Below are positions 55,513-64,000 of a stretch of DNA of 64,000 bases, in pieces (within the stretch, counting starts at the first letter, position 1; the number at the start of each line of letters is the position of its first letter). The notes beneath the pieces were generated by a model. That model was not told where the DNA came from. It searched no databases and saw only the letters and a program-made list of their open reading frames with translations. Source of the stretch: Acidobacteriota bacterium (GTDB lineage Bacteria; Acidobacteriota; Terriglobia; Versatilivoradales; Versatilivoraceae). The translations under genes were made by a program, and so were the position numbers. The DNA is taken from positions 1-64,000 of the forward strand of contig JAPPDF010000001.1 of NCBI GenBank assembly GCA_028875575.1, read 5' to 3'.

Positions 55513-55618
55513 CACGACCCCCTCTTCGGTTTCAGGAGCAAAGGCGGCATCTGAGGTGAATTGGCGCTTTTTCTTCGATCCCTCAATCAATGCAACTTAT
55601 TGACAATTGTAGCGAATA

Positions 55619-55734
55619 GGGGACGTTGTTGAATGACTGGAATAACTTCGATCGGCCGCTCCTGAATTGCTTTGCTGCAATCACGTCTTCTACGTGCTCT
55701 CTATAAGTTATTCCAGTCATTCAACAACGTCCCC
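55619..55734. repeat. 116-bp element with perfect 29-bp inverted repeats
   Basis: Arms 55619-55647 and 55706-55734 are exact reverse complements over 29 bp (outer end GGGGACGTTG, inner end GGAATAACT), enclosing 58 bp without a gene. It can fold into one long hairpin. The shape fits a miniature transposable element or a REP-type palindrome mobilised in trans by a Y1-type (RAYT) transposase. It sits between phzF and the relic of a second copy. Confidence 0.8.
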
Positions 55735-55748
55735 AGCACTGCACCCCG

Positions 55749-55890
55749 AAAAGTCTAGCAGGGGTTGGAACCCCTATGAAGGGACGGAAAGCGACCGGAC
55801 GGAAGGCGGAGATGCCCTGGTAACAACTTTCCGGGCGTCACACGAGCACCTCGCAATGCATGACCGTAGCCAACAATTGGGGGGCACGAG
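55749..55890 (-). pseudogene. Relic of a second phzF 3' end and its downstream flank
   Basis: On the minus strand 55838-55890 ends ATVMHCEVLV-stop, matching the end of the PhzF gene (VTIMRCELLV-stop). The next about 90 bp (to 55749) also match the DNA downstream of phzF (54636-54717), for example GTCTAGCAG and GACGGAAGG. Everything upstream of the last 15-20 codons is missing. This indicates a duplicated phzF of which only the tail survives. Counted by eye at roughly 70% identity. Confidence 0.6.
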
Positions 55891-56880: not shown

Positions 56881-56930
56881 TGGTGAGCCGCCAGGGAATC
56901 GAACCCCGAACCTACTGATTAAGAGTCAGT
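56881..56930 (-). other. tRNA-Lys(CTT) 3' fragment, attachment site of an integrative element
   Basis: On the minus strand a 5-bp anticodon stem (ACTGA/TCAGT) with loop CTCTTAA, a T-arm (CGGGG-TTCGATT-CCCTG), the acceptor 3' strand GCGGCTC, discriminator A and CCA are all present. The bases that should form the 5' acceptor and D-arm (56931-56960) do not fit: pairing is poor and no GG-containing D-loop is present. It is therefore the 3' half of a tRNA gene, the usual att core. The integrase starts 181 bp away. Confidence 0.72.
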
Positions 56931-57110
56931 TAATCTATTTGTTTCACTACATCTCATTCTATCCTAGACAGTTCATTAATCTACTTATATAGTTTCATTT
57001 ACACATTTATTGTCGTATTATCACGTCTCAGAAAGTTCAAGTAAATCTCGTTCATAGTGGAACCTATATGGAACCTAAAACGAGTCGAGAATCAAGAATA
57101 TGGAGCAAAG

Positions 57111-58325
57111 ATGCCCACTGCAAGACTGACAGACCGGCTACTGAAGAACCTGAAAACAGAACAATCTGTAGAGGAATTCTGGGATCAATCATTCCCCGGA
57201 TCGTTCGGAGTGCGGGTAAGAAAGAGCGGTCGCAAGACCTTTGTATTTCTTTACCGAACTGAGGGTCGTCGACGACGGATGAAGTTAGGTGTATACCCCG
57301 CACTTTCTCTTGCTGGAGCCAGGGATCAGGCGTTCAAATTTCTGGGCGCAGTCCAGCGGGGAGAAGACCCGGCGGAGAAACGTACACAAGAACGCGGGGC
57401 CGGAACATTTGAGGAGCTGGCCGAGTTGTATCTGGAGAGGCACGCTAGACCACTAAAGAAGCCGGCTAGCATTAAGGAAGATACCCGCATCTTAAACACC
57501 TACTTACTGCCGGTCTGGGCCCGGAGAAGGTTTCGGTCGATCACACGCTCTGACGTCATTTTTCTTCTAGACAACATCCAATTCAATCGTCAGGCTCCGG
57601 TCATGGCCAACCGAGTCAAAGCGCTGACTTCCACGATATTCAATTTTGCGTTAAGAAAGGCCTTGGTGCCGGTGACATTTGCCAATCCCTGTACTCACAT
57701 AGCGTTGCCTTACAAGGAAACGAGTCGTGACCGCGTGCTTAGCGACGATGAAATCCAAGCGCTGTGGAAAGATTTAGAAAACCACGCAGAACCCACCGCT
57801 TCAATCTTTCGGCTATTATTGTTGATCGGCCAGCGACCGGGTGAAACGAAGGTCATGCGGTGGCGTGACTTAGACGACAATCACATTTGGACCATTCCAG
57901 CAACCGTGACCAAAACCACGAGGGAACATAGGGTTCCCCTGTCAACGCAAGCGGTCGCTGTCATCGAGGAACTACGCCCCTTCAGCGGGGACTCGGAATT
58001 TGTCTTTGCGTCTCCCAAGGGTGGACACATACGTTGGCTTCAAAAAATGAGTCAACAGATCCAAAAGAACACGGGTTCCCATTTTCGACCCCACGATTTG
58101 CGCAGAACCTGTGCAACCAACTTGAGCAAGCTCGGAATTGGTGATGTCACCATTGCCAGGATCCTGAATCACTCGTGGCCATTGCGGCAAATGACGGCCG
58201 TGTACAACCGGTGGGATAAGCTACCAGAGATGGGCCGCGCATTACAGATATGGGGAGAACATCTTGAGCAGTTAGTCACGGCAAACAGAGTACCAATGTG
58301 TTGTCCCAATGTGTTGAGAATATGA
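57111..58325 (+). CDS. Tyrosine site-specific integrase (P4-type)
   Basis: 404 residues. N-terminal DUF4102-like arm-binding region (LTDRLLKNLK... GVRVRKSGRKTFVFLYR), core-binding region (130-200) and a catalytic domain with Arg in GQRPGETKVMRW, HDLRRTCATNL (H-x-x-R), the second His in ILNHS, and the nucleophile Tyr in AVYNRWD. Inserts and excises the element at a tRNA gene. The ATG at 57111 has GGAG upstream; the frame to 57057 is rejected. Its position beside the tRNA-Lys fragment is typical. A Cys-containing tail after the usual end (MCCPNVL) is unusual. Confidence 0.93.
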   Translation: MPTARLTDRLLKNLKTEQSVEEFWDQSFPGSFGVRVRKSGRKTFVFLYRTEGRRRRMKLGVYPALSLAGARDQAFKFLGAVQRGEDPAEKRTQERGAGTFEELAELYLERHARPLKKPASIKEDTRILNTYLLPVWARRRFRSITRSDVIFLLDNIQFNRQAPVMANRVKALTSTIFNFALRKALVPVTFANPCTHIALPYKETSRDRVLSDDEIQALWKDLENHAEPTASIFRLLLLIGQRPGETKVMRWRDLDDNHIWTIPATVTKTTREHRVPLSTQAVAVIEELRPFSGDSEFVFASPKGGHIRWLQKMSQQIQKNTGSHFRPHDLRRTCATNLSKLGIGDVTIARILNHSWPLRQMTAVYNRWDKLPEMGRALQIWGEHLEQLVTANRVPMCCPNVLRI

Positions 58326-58524
58326 CAGTCGGAATGGCACAGCCCGCTCGTAGCCCGCTCAAGAATGTGACCGAGGAGTGTCCTGGAGATGACTATTGCC
58401 CATTGGTCAAGAAACCGAGGCAGGGGAATTGAAACTACACAAAATCGTCACTTAGTTTTTCGATCCAAATAATTTATGAATCTTCTGCCGGGAGTATCGA
58501 CTATACTATTTACTCAAGGCGTTG

Positions 58525-59313
58525 ATGGAACCAGCATCGCTGGCTTGGAGTAGCGTGGCGCAGCCAACTACCCTCAAACGTCCTCCCATCACCGAAGCGC
58601 TTGTGGATCTTCGGGCGACCATTCCTGGAGATCTTGAGTCGTTTAGCGCTCTCGCCCGGCAGTTGCATAACAGATTCCCTCACCTACAGGAGAATCGTCA
58701 ATTCGAGGGTAAGCTGGAATTTGAAGGTGGTGACGTGCGATCCCACGTTAGCCCTCCAGCGTTTGCGGGCATTTTTGCGGCGAACGAGGAGAAAACGATC
58801 TATGTGCAGTTTCGTCCCGACGGATTTACTCTGAACAATGTAGTGAAAACCGCAGGAAGCTACATCGGCGGCGATCAGCTTATTGGCGAAGCACTTGATC
58901 TCTGGAGGTGGTTGGTTGAACGGACGGAGATTACGGGTGTATCGCGCGTAGGTCTTTACTACCTCAATCAACTGGATGGATTGCCGCTAAAGCCAGGTGA
59001 GAGAACTAATCTGTATTTCCGCAATCCTCCCACGCTTCCCCCAGGCTCACCCCAAACAATCAAGGGGTTCCTTTCACAGATCACGGCCTATGATCAAGAT
59101 CGAAAAGCCAATGTGATCGTGATTCAACAGGTTAAGCCACCCCCCAAAAAAGGCGAAATCCCTCCGGTCAGAATTGCCGTAGACGTGTTTCAGATAGGAG
59201 CTTTCCCCGTGGATACGGCTACATTGGGGGGCATCCTTGGTTCTCTCCGAGAGCTAAAGAACGAGATCTTCTTCTCGCTTCTCACAGATAGAGCAGTGAG
59301 GCACTACCAATGA
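58525..59313 (+). CDS. TIGR04255 family protein
   Basis: 262 residues. LKRPPITEALVDLRATIP near residue 18 is the N-terminal signature of the TIGR04255 family, and VRIAVDVFQIG with a C-terminal LRELKNEIFFSLLTDRAVRHY fits the rest. The biochemical role is unknown; members are often found on mobile islands beside short hypothetical genes. It overlaps the next gene by 4 bp (ATGA). First of three co-translated genes inside the element. Confidence 0.82.
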   Translation: MEPASLAWSSVAQPTTLKRPPITEALVDLRATIPGDLESFSALARQLHNRFPHLQENRQFEGKLEFEGGDVRSHVSPPAFAGIFAANEEKTIYVQFRPDGFTLNNVVKTAGSYIGGDQLIGEALDLWRWLVERTEITGVSRVGLYYLNQLDGLPLKPGERTNLYFRNPPTLPPGSPQTIKGFLSQITAYDQDRKANVIVIQQVKPPPKKGEIPPVRIAVDVFQIGAFPVDTATLGGILGSLRELKNEIFFSLLTDRAVRHYQ

Positions 59314-59774
59314 TTCTTGATGACGCACAGCCATCTTTCGGGCCCCCTCCACTGGTCCATTGGGGATTTCGCCCCTTGGGAACAGAGGCAATAGAACTAC
59401 AAGATTCGGTAAGCAGGGCCTTCGATCCCAGGGTTGAGCACAGGGAGGTCAGGATCTTCTTTCACCTCTTGGAGGTTGTCCGGCAGTCTCCTGGAGTGTC
59501 GGCGATCTCCTTCCACAGGGCCCTGAGCTTACTCAAGTCCCTGCCCAGCGACATTCCCCTACCTTTTGTGTGTGTGGAGTCAAAGGACGAGATCGGATTA
59601 GATTGGGATGAAGGAGGAGAAAAAGTCGTCAACCTCGTGATTGACACTTCCCCCGAGATCGGGTTTGTTACACTGCTCAAAGCGATGCCCGCGTATGGGA
59701 CAGTTGAGTACCGTGAAGCGTCTAGCACGCCTCCTGGCATTGTTCAATTTCTTCTGGAGCATGTGTACCCGTAG
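59310..59774 (+). CDS. Hypothetical protein, second gene of the TIGR04255 operon
   Basis: 154 residues, soluble, no motif I can name. It has a central helix pair (REVRIFFHLLEVVRQSPG) and an acidic strand region (SKDEIGLDWDEGGEKVVNLVID) typical of small binding proteins. Translationally coupled on both sides: 4-bp overlap with the gene before and 14-bp overlap with the one after. Its conserved position next to TIGR04255 proteins suggests a fixed complex; this is inference. Confidence 0.78.
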   Translation: MILDDAQPSFGPPPLVHWGFRPLGTEAIELQDSVSRAFDPRVEHREVRIFFHLLEVVRQSPGVSAISFHRALSLLKSLPSDIPLPFVCVESKDEIGLDWDEGGEKVVNLVIDTSPEIGFVTLLKAMPAYGTVEYREASSTPPGIVQFLLEHVYP

Positions 59775-60210
59775 GCCCGTGACTGATCCTTACGATGATG
59801 GTCCGATTAGCCCCACTGAACGCCTGTCTCGATTCGTCTACGACAGGAACAAATGCAAGCTTCAAAAAGAGCGTGTCGACGTAAGTCGGTTTTTGCCTCC
59901 AAAAGAGGGAAATAACACAGAGGAGATTTCTGTTTGGAGAACAGAAAATCTCACTGAGGAGAGGGTGTGGGGATTTGCTCCACCACGTTCTCATAGTCCA
60001 GTCGTCGCTCGTGGAGACTTTACAGCTCGAGATGTAGCAAGGAGTAAGGACAACGACTGGCAGCTACGGGCTGAGCCATCTCCACCAGCTCGGCACGTCC
60101 GGATCGTCGGATGGCCTCCAGTAAGTGAGAGAATGGCACGAAGGTATCTTGCCCGCAAACTTAGTCAAGTCGCTCGGCTCGTCCTTCACGAAGAAAACTT
60201 CTACTCCTAA
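59761..60210 (+). CDS. Hypothetical protein, third gene of the TIGR04255 operon
   Basis: 149 residues starting at ATG 59761 inside the previous gene's end. Recognisable blocks: RLSRFVYDRNKCKLQKERVD, FLPP, SVWRTENLTEERVWGF, and RHVRIVGWPPVSERMARRYLARKLS near the end. From memory, this arrangement (FLPP, the VxR T-x-L block, and H-x-x-I-x-G-W-P) belongs to a widespread unnamed family of small bacterial proteins. No catalytic motif is visible. It closes the three-gene unit. Confidence 0.75.
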   Translation: MCTRRPVTDPYDDGPISPTERLSRFVYDRNKCKLQKERVDVSRFLPPKEGNNTEEISVWRTENLTEERVWGFAPPRSHSPVVARGDFTARDVARSKDNDWQLRAEPSPPARHVRIVGWPPVSERMARRYLARKLSQVARLVLHEENFYS

Positions 60211-60965
60211 TCAAATATTTCCGGCAGAGTCCTTGCTTGCTCACCAGTGCACACGAATTTCCAGGGCCCCAACCCCAACCTCTTGTTTTGATGAAGAACC
60301 GCCCCTGAGTGTTTAGGCGCATGCTTTTCCCCTCCTAAATCCATGACAACAAAGGGGGCTGGTTACTCTCCTATATAGGTTCCATCTAATTTGGTAGTTT
60401 ACAATCGATCGACTGCAGGCGCCGCCGAGGTTGACCGGCTATCTTCGCCTACATTGATCCTGGTATGGCCACCTCCAAGAAGCTGCATCCTGGGGAAGAG
60501 TCACCGCGAGCTTTGGGCCAAACTCCGGCGGGCCGGCGGGACAGTGGAAGTGGCTAAATTCGCTTGGGACCAATACCATCTCGACCGCACCCAGCGTGTT
60601 CTCTAGATCTAGACAAACTGAGACGCGGGAGCGGCCAAGACAGAAGCGGACAGGCTCCGGCCAAAGCCGCCGTTTCCTCGGCCACTTGGTCGATCTTATC
60701 CTCGACGGCGCCGAGGCTGCCAAGACGTGCGACGGCGATCCCATCACTTCCGCTTCCGGGGGGCAAGGCCGTGGAGAGCACCGACAGACTCATATCCACA
60801 GCAATGCAGAAAGAAAGACAATTCGCCAGGGGACTTCTACGCGATGAAGATGAAGATTTTTTATTCGTGCCAACCCGAGTGTAGGTCCAGAACAAATAGT
60901 TTGGATTGGAAGATGTATACGCAGAAGCACCTTTCTGGAACGTTTTCGGTAGCACTGAAATCGAA
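60211..60965. other. Long spacer between the TIGR04255 operon and the methyltransferase
   Basis: About 750 bp with no convincing gene on either strand; short open frames here lack family sequence, and possible relic coding sequence near 60391-60606 cannot be identified. A TGGAACCTATAT word near 60370 recurs inverted at 57058-57069, close to the integrase. Confidence 0.4.
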
Positions 60966-62930
60966 ATGACCCCCGAACAACGTGAAGAACTTGTCCGCCT
61001 GCTGAATCTGGGGGAGGAAATTTCTCCTGCATGGTCCCGGATTCTGTTCCCTCCAGAAAAACGGGAGTATGAGCTTATCTATCACGGCAAGGAACGGGCG
61101 GAAGACATCCTAGCCGACGCGCTTGCCGTCCCGCTGCAGCCCGTTCGCACTTTCGGCAATATCGGTGTTGACTGGCACAACATGCTTATCTTTGGCGACA
61201 ACCTTCAGGTTATGAAAACGTTGCTGGAGATGAAAAAGGCCGGCAAACTGCGAAACGCTGATGGAACAGACGGTGTGCGACTTGTCTATATTGATCCACC
61301 ATTCTCTACGCGAAGGGACTATCTCGGTACAGAAGACCAGAGGGCCTATCAGGACAAAATCGCGGGCTCCAGATTTCTTGAATTCCTCAGAAGGCGACTG
61401 GTCCTCATCAGGGAACTACTTAGCGATGACGGCACATTTTTTGTTCATCTCGACTTGAAGAAGATCCACCATGTAAAGCTCCTTCTTGACGAGATATTTG
61501 GTGAAAGCAGAATACTTAACGAGATTGTCTGGTATTACGAGAACAAGCTTGGAACAGGCGGAGACGTTCTAGACCGTCGACATGACACGCTTCTTTGGTA
61601 TGGAGTCGGTAAGAAACATAGGTTCAATGTCCTACATGAGCCGGTAAAAGAACGCAAGCTCCAGCCCGTTACTCAGAAGATCGGTGGCAAAAGGATCTGG
61701 CTCCGCGACGAAAATGAGAAGCGGCTTTACCGACCCAGCCGCAGTACACGACCGGTCGGTGATATATGGACGTTGCCGATCATCAATCCCGTTGCTAGTG
61801 AGCGGCTCGGTTACCCGACTCAGAAGCCTGAGGTCCTACTAGATCGCGTGATACAGATGGCTTCAGGCCAAGGGGACATCGTCCTGGATGCATTTGCTGG
61901 CTCGGGCACGACATGCGCCGTGGCCGAGAAGCTTGGGCGGCGCTGGATTGGAATAGACTGCGGTAAGCTTGCCGTCTACACGATCCAGAAACGTATGCTG
62001 AACCTCTGCAAGAAGATTGGCAATAAGGGACCAAAGCTCCAACCCAAGCCGTTCACCCTCTTCAATGCCGGATTATACGACTTCTCGAAGCTCCGAAACC
62101 TCTCGTGGAAGGACTGGCGATTCTTTGCGCTGCAGTTGTTCCAGTGTCGCGACCAGCCTCACGATGTAGGCGGCGTGGCGTTCGATGGGTTTCGCCAAGG
62201 TGCAGACGTGATGGTGTTTAACCATTTTATGCACAAGAACGCTGTGATTAGTGAGGAAACAATCCGAGAGATTCACGAGGCGGTTGGAACCCGCATCGGA
62301 AGCAAGGTGTTCGTTATAGCTCCAGCGTTGGCGTTTGATTTCCAGCAGGACTACATCACACTCGGAGGCGTGCGCTACTACGCGCTGCGTATTCCTTATT
62401 CCATCATCCATGAGTTACACCGTAGGGAGTTTACTGCACTAAAGCAACCCGCGGATGAAATGGCGGTGAACGACACAGTTGAAGCGGTTGGGTTTGATTT
62501 CATCCGAACGCCAGAACTGGAATACGAACTCGGGCGGACAAGACAGACGGGTGAATCGTTCGAGCAAGTTTTCATTGAAATCAAGTCGTTCCAAAGCGAC
62601 TTTGTGGTGAGCGAGCCATTTCGAAAGAGGGCCAATCGGGAAACGCTTTCCATGGTCATGATTGACTTCAACTATGACGAGAAAAGCCAGGTGTTTGATC
62701 TAGATGCGGTCCAATACGCGGATGAGATCAAACAGGCGGGATGGAAGGTAACGTTCTGCCACGACTTGATTGGCAGGAAAGTAATGGTGGTGTTCGTTGA
62801 CATATATGGCAACGAAGCCCGGATTCTGATCGATTCACGGGATTTTGAGAAGATCGGGAGGAAAGCACCAGCGGGGAGCCGGAATGCGCGTTCCGAGAAA
62901 GACGCGGCAAAAAAGGTGGAAGGAAAATGA
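60966..62930 (+). CDS. Type III-like site-specific DNA methyltransferase (Mod)
   Basis: 654 residues from ATG 60966; a TTG at 60906 would add 20. Beta-class adenine-methyltransferase order: motif IV DPPF (110-113) precedes motif I FAGSGTT (310-316), with GDNLQVM (77-83) and TQKP (285-288). The opening MTPEQREELVRLLNLGEE and FPPEKREYELIYHGKE are typical of helicase-partnered methyltransferases. A long C-terminal region (about 360-654) probably contains target recognition and contact with the partner. It methylates adenine in a short site and overlaps the helicase gene by 4 bp. Start is uncertain because no clear Shine-Dalgarno is visible. Confidence 0.9.
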   Translation: MTPEQREELVRLLNLGEEISPAWSRILFPPEKREYELIYHGKERAEDILADALAVPLQPVRTFGNIGVDWHNMLIFGDNLQVMKTLLEMKKAGKLRNADGTDGVRLVYIDPPFSTRRDYLGTEDQRAYQDKIAGSRFLEFLRRRLVLIRELLSDDGTFFVHLDLKKIHHVKLLLDEIFGESRILNEIVWYYENKLGTGGDVLDRRHDTLLWYGVGKKHRFNVLHEPVKERKLQPVTQKIGGKRIWLRDENEKRLYRPSRSTRPVGDIWTLPIINPVASERLGYPTQKPEVLLDRVIQMASGQGDIVLDAFAGSGTTCAVAEKLGRRWIGIDCGKLAVYTIQKRMLNLCKKIGNKGPKLQPKPFTLFNAGLYDFSKLRNLSWKDWRFFALQLFQCRDQPHDVGGVAFDGFRQGADVMVFNHFMHKNAVISEETIREIHEAVGTRIGSKVFVIAPALAFDFQQDYITLGGVRYYALRIPYSIIHELHRREFTALKQPADEMAVNDTVEAVGFDFIRTPELEYELGRTRQTGESFEQVFIEIKSFQSDFVVSEPFRKRANRETLSMVMIDFNYDEKSQVFDLDAVQYADEIKQAGWKVTFCHDLIGRKVMVVFVDIYGNEARILIDSRDFEKIGRKAPAGSRNARSEKDAAKKVEGK

Positions 62931-64000
62931 GCCGCACACACGGTGACCGCCAGACTTTTAGGAATGAGGATCTTGTCCTTCGGGTCACGACAGACATTGA
63001 CCCAACGGTTTGGAATGAGGCCAGATACGAGCCTTTCATAAACGAACTCTGCGGCTCCAGAGAGTATCAGGTGGACGCCATCTGGACCGTCATGCGCTAC
63101 ATGGCAGGCGGACGGTATGCCAACCTAAGGGAATTGGCAAAGGCTAATTTCGAGGCCAATGACGAACTGGGATCAAGATATGGATCGTGGAAGGGAATGG
63201 AGGCTCATCTGCAGATGCCCGACCATCTTGCGTGTTCTCTCGACATGGCGACGGGGACCGGTAAGAGCTATGTGCTCTACGGTGTGGCCGTCATCTTGCT
63301 CGCCGAGCGGCTGGTGGACCGCGTACTCGTCCTGTGCCCATCCAATACGATCGAGGCCGGACTGCTGGCGAAATTTCGAGATCTGGCCAGCAATGCTGAC
63401 CTTCGGGACCTACTCCCGTCTAACGTGAAGGTGCGCGCACCTAAAATCATCAACGCCTCAGAGACGATCGTGGATTGCTCTATCTGTGTGGAAAATTACC
63501 ATGCGATTCTAAAGCATGTGAAGTCGTCGATTCGCGATAGCCTAAGCGGCAAGGGTGATCGGGTGGCCGTCCTAAATGACGAAGCTCATCACGTGGCTAA
63601 CGAGACGGGCACGAACGTGAAACGATGGAAGGAGTTTTTGCTAAATCCCGACTATGGCTTTCGCTATATCTTGGGTGTTTCGGGAACCTGCTATATCGGT
63701 GACCAGTATTTCGCAGATGTTGTAAACCGTTACTCCCTGCGCCAAGCGATCGAGCAGCGTTTCGTCAAAACGGTGAAGTACGTGGCTGAAATGCCGCAGA
63801 CGGACAATCCAGACGAGAAGTGGCAGCTCATCTATAACCGTCACCAAGCATGGAAAAAAGAGTTGAAACGGCGTCAAATCCGCCCGCTGACGATTATTGT
63901 TACAAGGGACATCAAGACGTGCAAACGAGTTGCTGAAGAACTCCAGCGTTTCCTTGAGGAACGGGAGTTGCTTGAGAGCGAAGAAGCAGGGGCGAAAGTG
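62927..64000 (+). CDS. DEAD/DEAH-box helicase, type III-like restriction subunit (Res), 3' end beyond window
   Basis: The first 358 residues are seen; the frame is open at the window edge. Walker A ATGTGKS (108-114), DEAH at 218-221, SGT at 252-254, and an upstream YQ (47-48) Q-motif give a superfamily 2 helicase. Family members run to about 900-1000 residues and end in a nuclease. ATGA overlap with the methyltransferase gene shows coupled translation. Together they should form a restriction or defence complex that cleaves unmodified DNA. Whether the nuclease part is present cannot be seen. Confidence 0.9.
   Translation, partial: MSRTHGDRQTFRNEDLVLRVTTDIDPTVWNEARYEPFINELCGSREYQVDAIWTVMRYMAGGRYANLRELAKANFEANDELGSRYGSWKGMEAHLQMPDHLACSLDMATGTGKSYVLYGVAVILLAERLVDRVLVLCPSNTIEAGLLAKFRDLASNADLRDLLPSNVKVRAPKIINASETIVDCSICVENYHAILKHVKSSIRDSLSGKGDRVAVLNDEAHHVANETGTNVKRWKEFLLNPDYGFRYILGVSGTCYIGDQYFADVVNRYSLRQAIEQRFVKTVKYVAEMPQTDNPDEKWQLIYNRHQAWKKELKRRQIRPLTIIVTRDIKTCKRVAEELQRFLEERELLESEEAGAKV

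Follow-up and report, generated by a model that had tools for sequence, protein, structure and literature searches.

The three overlapping genes at positions 58525-60210 of the window (the whole stretch analysed here, 64,000 nucleotides of an Acidobacteriota contig) probably form a tripartite toxin-antitoxin module that consists of a toxin with an ADP-ribosyltransferase (ART) fold, an antitoxin, and a TIGR04255 protein that would act as the guardian of the antitoxin. The module itself is fairly well supported. In the mechanism that we propose, gene 3 would be the toxin, a small protein with a KptA/RES-like ART fold that would probably act on RNA or on a nucleotide by modifying or destroying it; the antitoxin, gene 2, would bind and block gene 3; and gene 1, the TIGR04255 protein, would be a dedicated partner needed to hold or fold the antitoxin. 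If TIGR04255 were titrated away, for example by a phage protein or a misfolded protein, the antitoxin would fail and the toxin would act. A guardian of antitoxins is the simplest account because a constant gene is accompanied by exchangeable pairs, some of them with known toxins, and because the putative antitoxins of two pair types share a module. We infer the chaperone role of TIGR04255, the toxicity of gene 3 and its neutralisation, the trigger, and an anti-phage function of the trio.

Operon, conservation and the predicted fold of gene 3

All three genes lie on the plus strand in the order gene 1 (58525-59313, 262 aa), gene 2 (59310-59774, 154 aa) and gene 3 (59761-60210, 149 aa). Genes 1 and 2 overlap by 4 bp and genes 2 and 3 by 14 bp, which bears out an earlier note on this DNA that had described three co-translated, overlapping genes. 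Gene 1 matches the NCBIfam family TIGR04255 with 68.4 bits over positions 17-259 (curated cut-off 30); a Pfam search of gene 1 was empty up to E 1, as was a PDB search with a 96-row profile up to E 10. For genes 2 and 3, nothing in Pfam, NCBIfam, PADLOC or PHROG scored above cut-off. Both are nevertheless recognized by HMMs built from 47 other loci without this lineage, gene 2 at E 1.4e-11 and gene 3 at E 1.1e-22, while the best of 828 decoys reached 0.36 and 0.72, respectively.

Of 101 genomes (the source genome and its relatives), 5 contain gene 1 and 3 contain gene 2. The gene order is the same in congener G001 and in relatives G052 and G060, and in G091 the trio comes in two pieces. The window and G001 share 84, 85 and 81% protein identity for genes 1, 2 and 3, with dN/dS of 0.32, 0.20 and 0.22. 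Homologous trios, with TIGR04255 first, occur in many phyla. Judged at the level of sequence, from the congener copy and from HMM matches far above decoys, the trio is more than a chance arrangement. The fixed trio described in the earlier note is supported, and the three genes likely form one functional unit. Its description of a TIGR04255 trio whose third protein belongs to a widespread unnamed small family holds for gene 3, and fails if the third protein was meant to be TIGR04255 itself, which is gene 1.

The predicted fold of gene 3 comes from a homologous locus, L056, whose genes 2 and 3 were modelled together by reading through the stop between them (pLDDT 91.3, pTM 0.70; about 92-98 by blocks of ten in the gene-3 part). 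In a fold comparison, five KptA/Tpt1 entries ranked first, with Z from 8.1 to 6.6 (top three 8.1, 7.8 and 7.7); the best of these superimposed at 2.8 Å over 92 residues and covered only KptA residues 88-180. RES toxins (Z 4.6), TreTu (4.5) and diphtheria toxin (3.9) followed. Foldseek gave weak results with the same model (best E 0.18; KptA at E 0.31, probability 0.72). KptA/Tpt1, RES, TreTu and diphtheria toxin are different families of one superfamily, and we therefore regard the ART assignment as credible despite the weak Foldseek scores. The model thus predicts an ART fold for gene 3, and conserved residues E20, R24, S57, R111 and H112 would be compatible with an active site.

Sequence comparison places gene 3 in none of these families. 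It matches neither KptA/Tpt1 (PF01885) nor RES (PF08808) in Pfam, where its sole match is to AUX_IAA at 0.049, below cut-off. With hhalign it shows no link to KptA or RES, which is uninformative because KptA and RES are not linked to each other either. Gene 3 shares a predicted fold with the KptA/Tpt1 tRNA 2'-phosphotransferases and is not of the same family. The predicted fold is likewise of the ART type seen in toxins of RES-Xre toxin-antitoxin systems, but the putative antitoxin paired with this gene 3 (type I, see below) has no Xre match. In a separate search, the predicted structure of an unnamed viral protein of 114 aa, A0A345BPV0, matched part of the gene 2-gene 3 model (E 3.4e-5, TM 0.71 of the target).

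Gene pairs exchanged behind TIGR04255

Species genomes were scanned with an alignment of gene 1. The best 80 of 181 relatives were kept and joined by 3 viral-contig loci, giving 83 gene-1 loci (an in-frame stop kept L091 out of the gene-1 alignment); 3 of these end at or just behind gene 1, and 80 have downstream sequence. Partners clustered by BLASTP (E below 1e-4) fall into a few types. The pair found in the window (type I) is present at 48 of the 80 loci, and a type-I-like gene 2 with no matching gene 3 called at another 7. At 10 loci gene 3 is a DUF7689 protein (type II; 8 complete pairs, 1 cut by a contig end and 1 with gene 2 not read), with E 3.9e-37 and 1.1e-39 in the two proteins scanned. 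At 8 loci it is a protein of a TQSCDL family (type III), at 4 a relative of gene 2 is followed by a different gene 3 (type IV), and the remaining 3 loci carry other partners. Types I-IV require 4 changes on the gene-1 tree; pairs are therefore exchanged now and then and are otherwise inherited with gene 1.

More distant TIGR04255 operons carry recognizable toxin domains in some cases. We surveyed 30 loci from a scan of the phylum, and scanned 50 partner proteins against Pfam (55 extracted, 6 omitted as fragments, unrelated or masked, and 1 added). Downstream of TIGR04255 were a PIN domain (1.7e-11) and a PemK domain (5.8e-19), both above cut-off, together with a second PemK match (0.0061), a HEPN match (0.027) and a HicA match (0.038), all below cut-off. 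Gene 2 was Xre/HTH-like in some of these operons (best 1.1e-05). Most of the 10 plasmid records viewed have two annotated genes closely behind TIGR04255, 3 being ambiguous from a gap or missing annotation, and on a Vibrio plasmid TIGR04255 is followed by a hypothetical gene and then by a gene annotated as zeta toxin. The zeta, HicA and HEPN assignments found no support in PDB searches. Most partner pairs are unnamed proteins, which we count against the module reading. One unnamed family, TQSCDL/TQTCDI, recurs as gene 3 behind TIGR04255 (L079:4681-5205, L121:2913-3731 and L142:530-1078); it has no Pfam or PDB match and is a candidate toxin family. Locus L141 (2172-2585) has a two-gene form, with a VapC20-like PIN protein (2.3e-9) directly behind TIGR04255, a 4-bp overlap and no gene between, and this form may show the role of TIGR04255.

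The putative antitoxins of two pair types have a segment in common. At 41 of 48 loci the start of type I gene 2 lies 1 or 4 nt within gene 1, and the family usually carries a GWDGYGA motif, which is lost in the gene 2 of the window. When the N-terminal 65 residues of gene 2 from 47 type I loci were built into an HMM, 4 of 9 N-termini of type II gene 2 scored above every one of the 828 decoys (L061 1.1e-4, L075 1.9e-4, L049 3.9e-4 and L053 6.3e-3), whereas an HMM of the remaining, C-terminal part finds no type II gene 2. Thus an N-terminal module is common to two gene-2 families whose C-termini are unrelated. Its consensus centres on G.S.EA; in the model, two helices come after an initial stretch of ~20 residues whose prediction has low confidence. 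Type III gene 2 gave no significant match to this module. The window's own gene 2 gave E 16 and no score, a result that counts against the module reading.

Host element and movement of the trio

The trio is carried by a ~17-kb element integrated in a tRNA-Lys gene. Its left end, attL, repeats 51 bp of the tRNA-Lys(CTT) 3' end on the minus strand (56881-56931), and a perfect second copy lies at 74064-74114 of the contig, outside the window, within an intact tRNA-Lys (BLASTN and ARAGORN). Next to attL, on the plus strand, is a tyrosine integrase (57057-58325; Pfam Phage_integrase 1.4e-21, Arm-DNA-bind_3 3.3e-19). Behind the trio, also on the plus strand, is a restriction-modification pair as neighbouring cargo: an adenine DNA methylase (60906-62930; N6_N4_Mtase 5.3e-49) and a ResIII-type helicase/restriction subunit (62927-64000, running on to contig position 65386; ResIII 1.7e-14). 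The site is empty in three congeners. One intact tRNA-Lys on a single contig is bracketed by the flanks of the two element ends in G006 and G004; in G003 these flanks lie on two contigs, one of which carries the tRNA-Lys. In G005, the same junction carries an integrase; the 91% identity reaches contig position 58353, immediately ahead of the trio, and the G005 contig ends soon after. The placing of the trio between an integrase and a restriction-type pair, as the earlier note had it, is confirmed by Pfam matches on both sides, and its claim of element cargo by the integrase, the att repeats and the empty site.

Beyond the window, the element contains a tRNA-Leu(CAA) at 65633-65716 of the contig and, at about 67.5-73.9 kb, a transposase, a GIY-YIG protein and a relaxase-like protein (identified by eye), because of which it may be mobilizable. 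Outside the element, at 55612-55750 of the window, lies a dispersed repeat that is about 130 bp long and bounded by inverted repeats; a 2.5-kb query around it gave 106 matches in congener G001, and most of those listed are to this repeat.

The trio also occurs away from such an element. In G001, a block 86% identical and corresponding exactly to 58450-60236 lies at another genomic place. The two segments that border it there are separated by only 275 bp in G004, by 451 bp in G000 and by 847 bp in G005, and the two bordering genes are close neighbours in other congeners. By eye, no integrase was seen among the ORFs surrounding the G001 copy. We conclude that the trio moves as a unit without being bound to this integrase; its patchy presence (5/101 genomes) and its two different positions within one genus indicate that the trio itself moves.

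Linkage to mobile elements is not general. The earlier note had proposed looking for the trio on other mobile elements: relatives of this gene-1 type occur in 3 of 72,556 plasmid records, in 0 of 50,697 phage records (tblastn) and at 3 loci on viral contigs. It had also held that a location mainly in the core genome would speak against the cargo idea, and core-type neighbours were in part what we found. The trio lies in the gyrB-gyrA interval in two relatives, G060 and G091, and near ftsH and ruvA in a third (gene names by eye), and the G001 copy has no integrase; the patchiness and the two positions nonetheless speak for movement.

Alternative roles for TIGR04255 and relation to known systems

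TIGR04255 might instead be an antitoxin itself, or regulate the toxin-antitoxin operon as a DNA-binding protein, a reading that we consider unlikely. The two-gene form in L141 favours it, as a VapC-like gene directly behind TIGR04255 is a poor fit with a guarded, separate antitoxin. However, nearly all other loci have a separate gene 2 between TIGR04255 and gene 3, and several Xre-type gene-2 proteins already have an HTH-like region. The AlphaFold2 model of gene 1 (pLDDT 91.3, pTM 0.87) also speaks for this reading. It is an alpha/beta structure whose elements suggest a duplicated TBP-like saddle fold, and in Foldseek its only matches below 1e-3 were three TATA-binding proteins (1ais E 6.3e-4, probability 0.99); these matches have TM of 0.25-0.39 and are no proof of DNA binding.

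We assign a still smaller likelihood to a three-subunit enzyme or stress complex outside toxin-antitoxin logic, in which gene 3 would be a KptA-like RNA-processing enzyme with an ART fold and not a toxin. The best fold match of gene 3 is indeed a tRNA-processing enzyme, and the location between gyrB and gyrA in two relatives agrees with such a role. In contrast, the presence in so few genomes, the movement within the genus, and the exchange with PIN and PemK pairs in operons led by the same gene 1 family argue against it. We think it very improbable that gene 1 has a phosphagen/McsB arginine-kinase-like fold and, as an enzyme, tags the antitoxin for proteolysis: guanidino kinases including McsB head the VIA comparison of the model (Z 8.8 to 7.5, with S-adenosylmethionine decarboxylase and TBP near 7.5) and R141, R145, D218 and D220 are conserved, but a best Z of 7-8 is typical of models with no true match and may reflect a common arrangement, and the kinase superpositions have an rmsd of about 4 Å at 4-9% identity.

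A guarded toxin-antitoxin pair, the reading that we prefer, has counterparts among described systems. In toxin-antitoxin-chaperone (TAC) systems, a SecB homologue accompanies HigBA, HicAB or MqsRA pairs, and there is a C-terminal addiction region (PMC5105189). In the anti-phage system CmdTAC, whose chaperone is SecB-like, a phage capsid protein draws off the chaperone, the antitoxin is degraded and the ART toxin is freed (PMC11618068). CmdTAC is a precedent for the combination of an ART toxin, an antitoxin and a chaperone (PMC11618068). Like CmdTAC, the trio is a three-gene module with a putative toxin, here of predicted ART fold, and a third protein beside the pair; unlike it, TIGR04255 has no sequence match to SecB, and the order is partner-antitoxin-toxin (PMC11618068). 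As in TAC of the M. tuberculosis type, one extra protein would serve several toxin-antitoxin families, and a separable antitoxin segment would go along with it (PMC5105189). In TAC, the addiction region is C-terminal and has no significant similarity between systems, whereas the segment described above is N-terminal and shared between two gene-2 families (PMC5105189).

Three genes in one operon, as in TAC, are present. SecB homology of gene 1 was not found by sequence (Pfam and PDB profile search), and SecB is absent among the fold-search entries shown for the gene 1 model, an absence that excludes nothing. Because SecB homology was tested and not found, we liken the trio to TAC in its working and do not classify it as TAC. 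A literature search for tripartite toxin-antitoxin systems returned SecB-type TAC, HipBST or other systems. A full-text search whose scope excludes preprints and most subscription journals returned no paper on TIGR04255 or DUF7689. The literature searched describes no role for TIGR04255. Of 396 genomes from the phylum, 39 have the family (35 over cut-off), against 0 of 14 control genomes.

The occurrence of TIGR04255 beside many unrelated toxin-antidote pairs across bacteria suggests that the family is an as yet unnamed guardian of these systems. Should it guard antitoxins in general, it would solve in a second way the problem that falls to SecB-like chaperones in TAC; several unnamed toxin families (type I gene 3, DUF7689 and the TQSCDL family) would be indicated at once, and whether such guardians are phage sensors would become directly testable. 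More tentatively, and as somewhat less likely than not, TIGR04255 may be the founder of a second guardian class for toxin-antitoxin systems, one with no relation to SecB. Its TBP-like saddle would capture an N-terminal addiction module present on many antitoxins that are unrelated elsewhere, and a single sensor could in this way be coupled to ART-fold, PIN, PemK/MazF, HEPN, HicA-like, DUF7689 or TQSCDL effectors, released on infection.

None of the three proteins matches a described defence family in PADLOC at E up to 1. For the neighbourhood of such loci, the PADLOC comparison covered 131/132 nearest flanking ORFs, 131/132 ORFs more than 5 kb away and 125/131 random ORFs (six long ones dropped for their size). 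Restriction, DISARM and BREX families appeared in both the nearest-flank and the >5 kb sets, and more generic matches in the random set; we claim no defence-island enrichment, because matches were not counted per distinct protein. At three further loci (L117, L119 and L138; translations read by eye), TIGR04255 modules adjoin restriction or DNA-methylase genes, as in the window.
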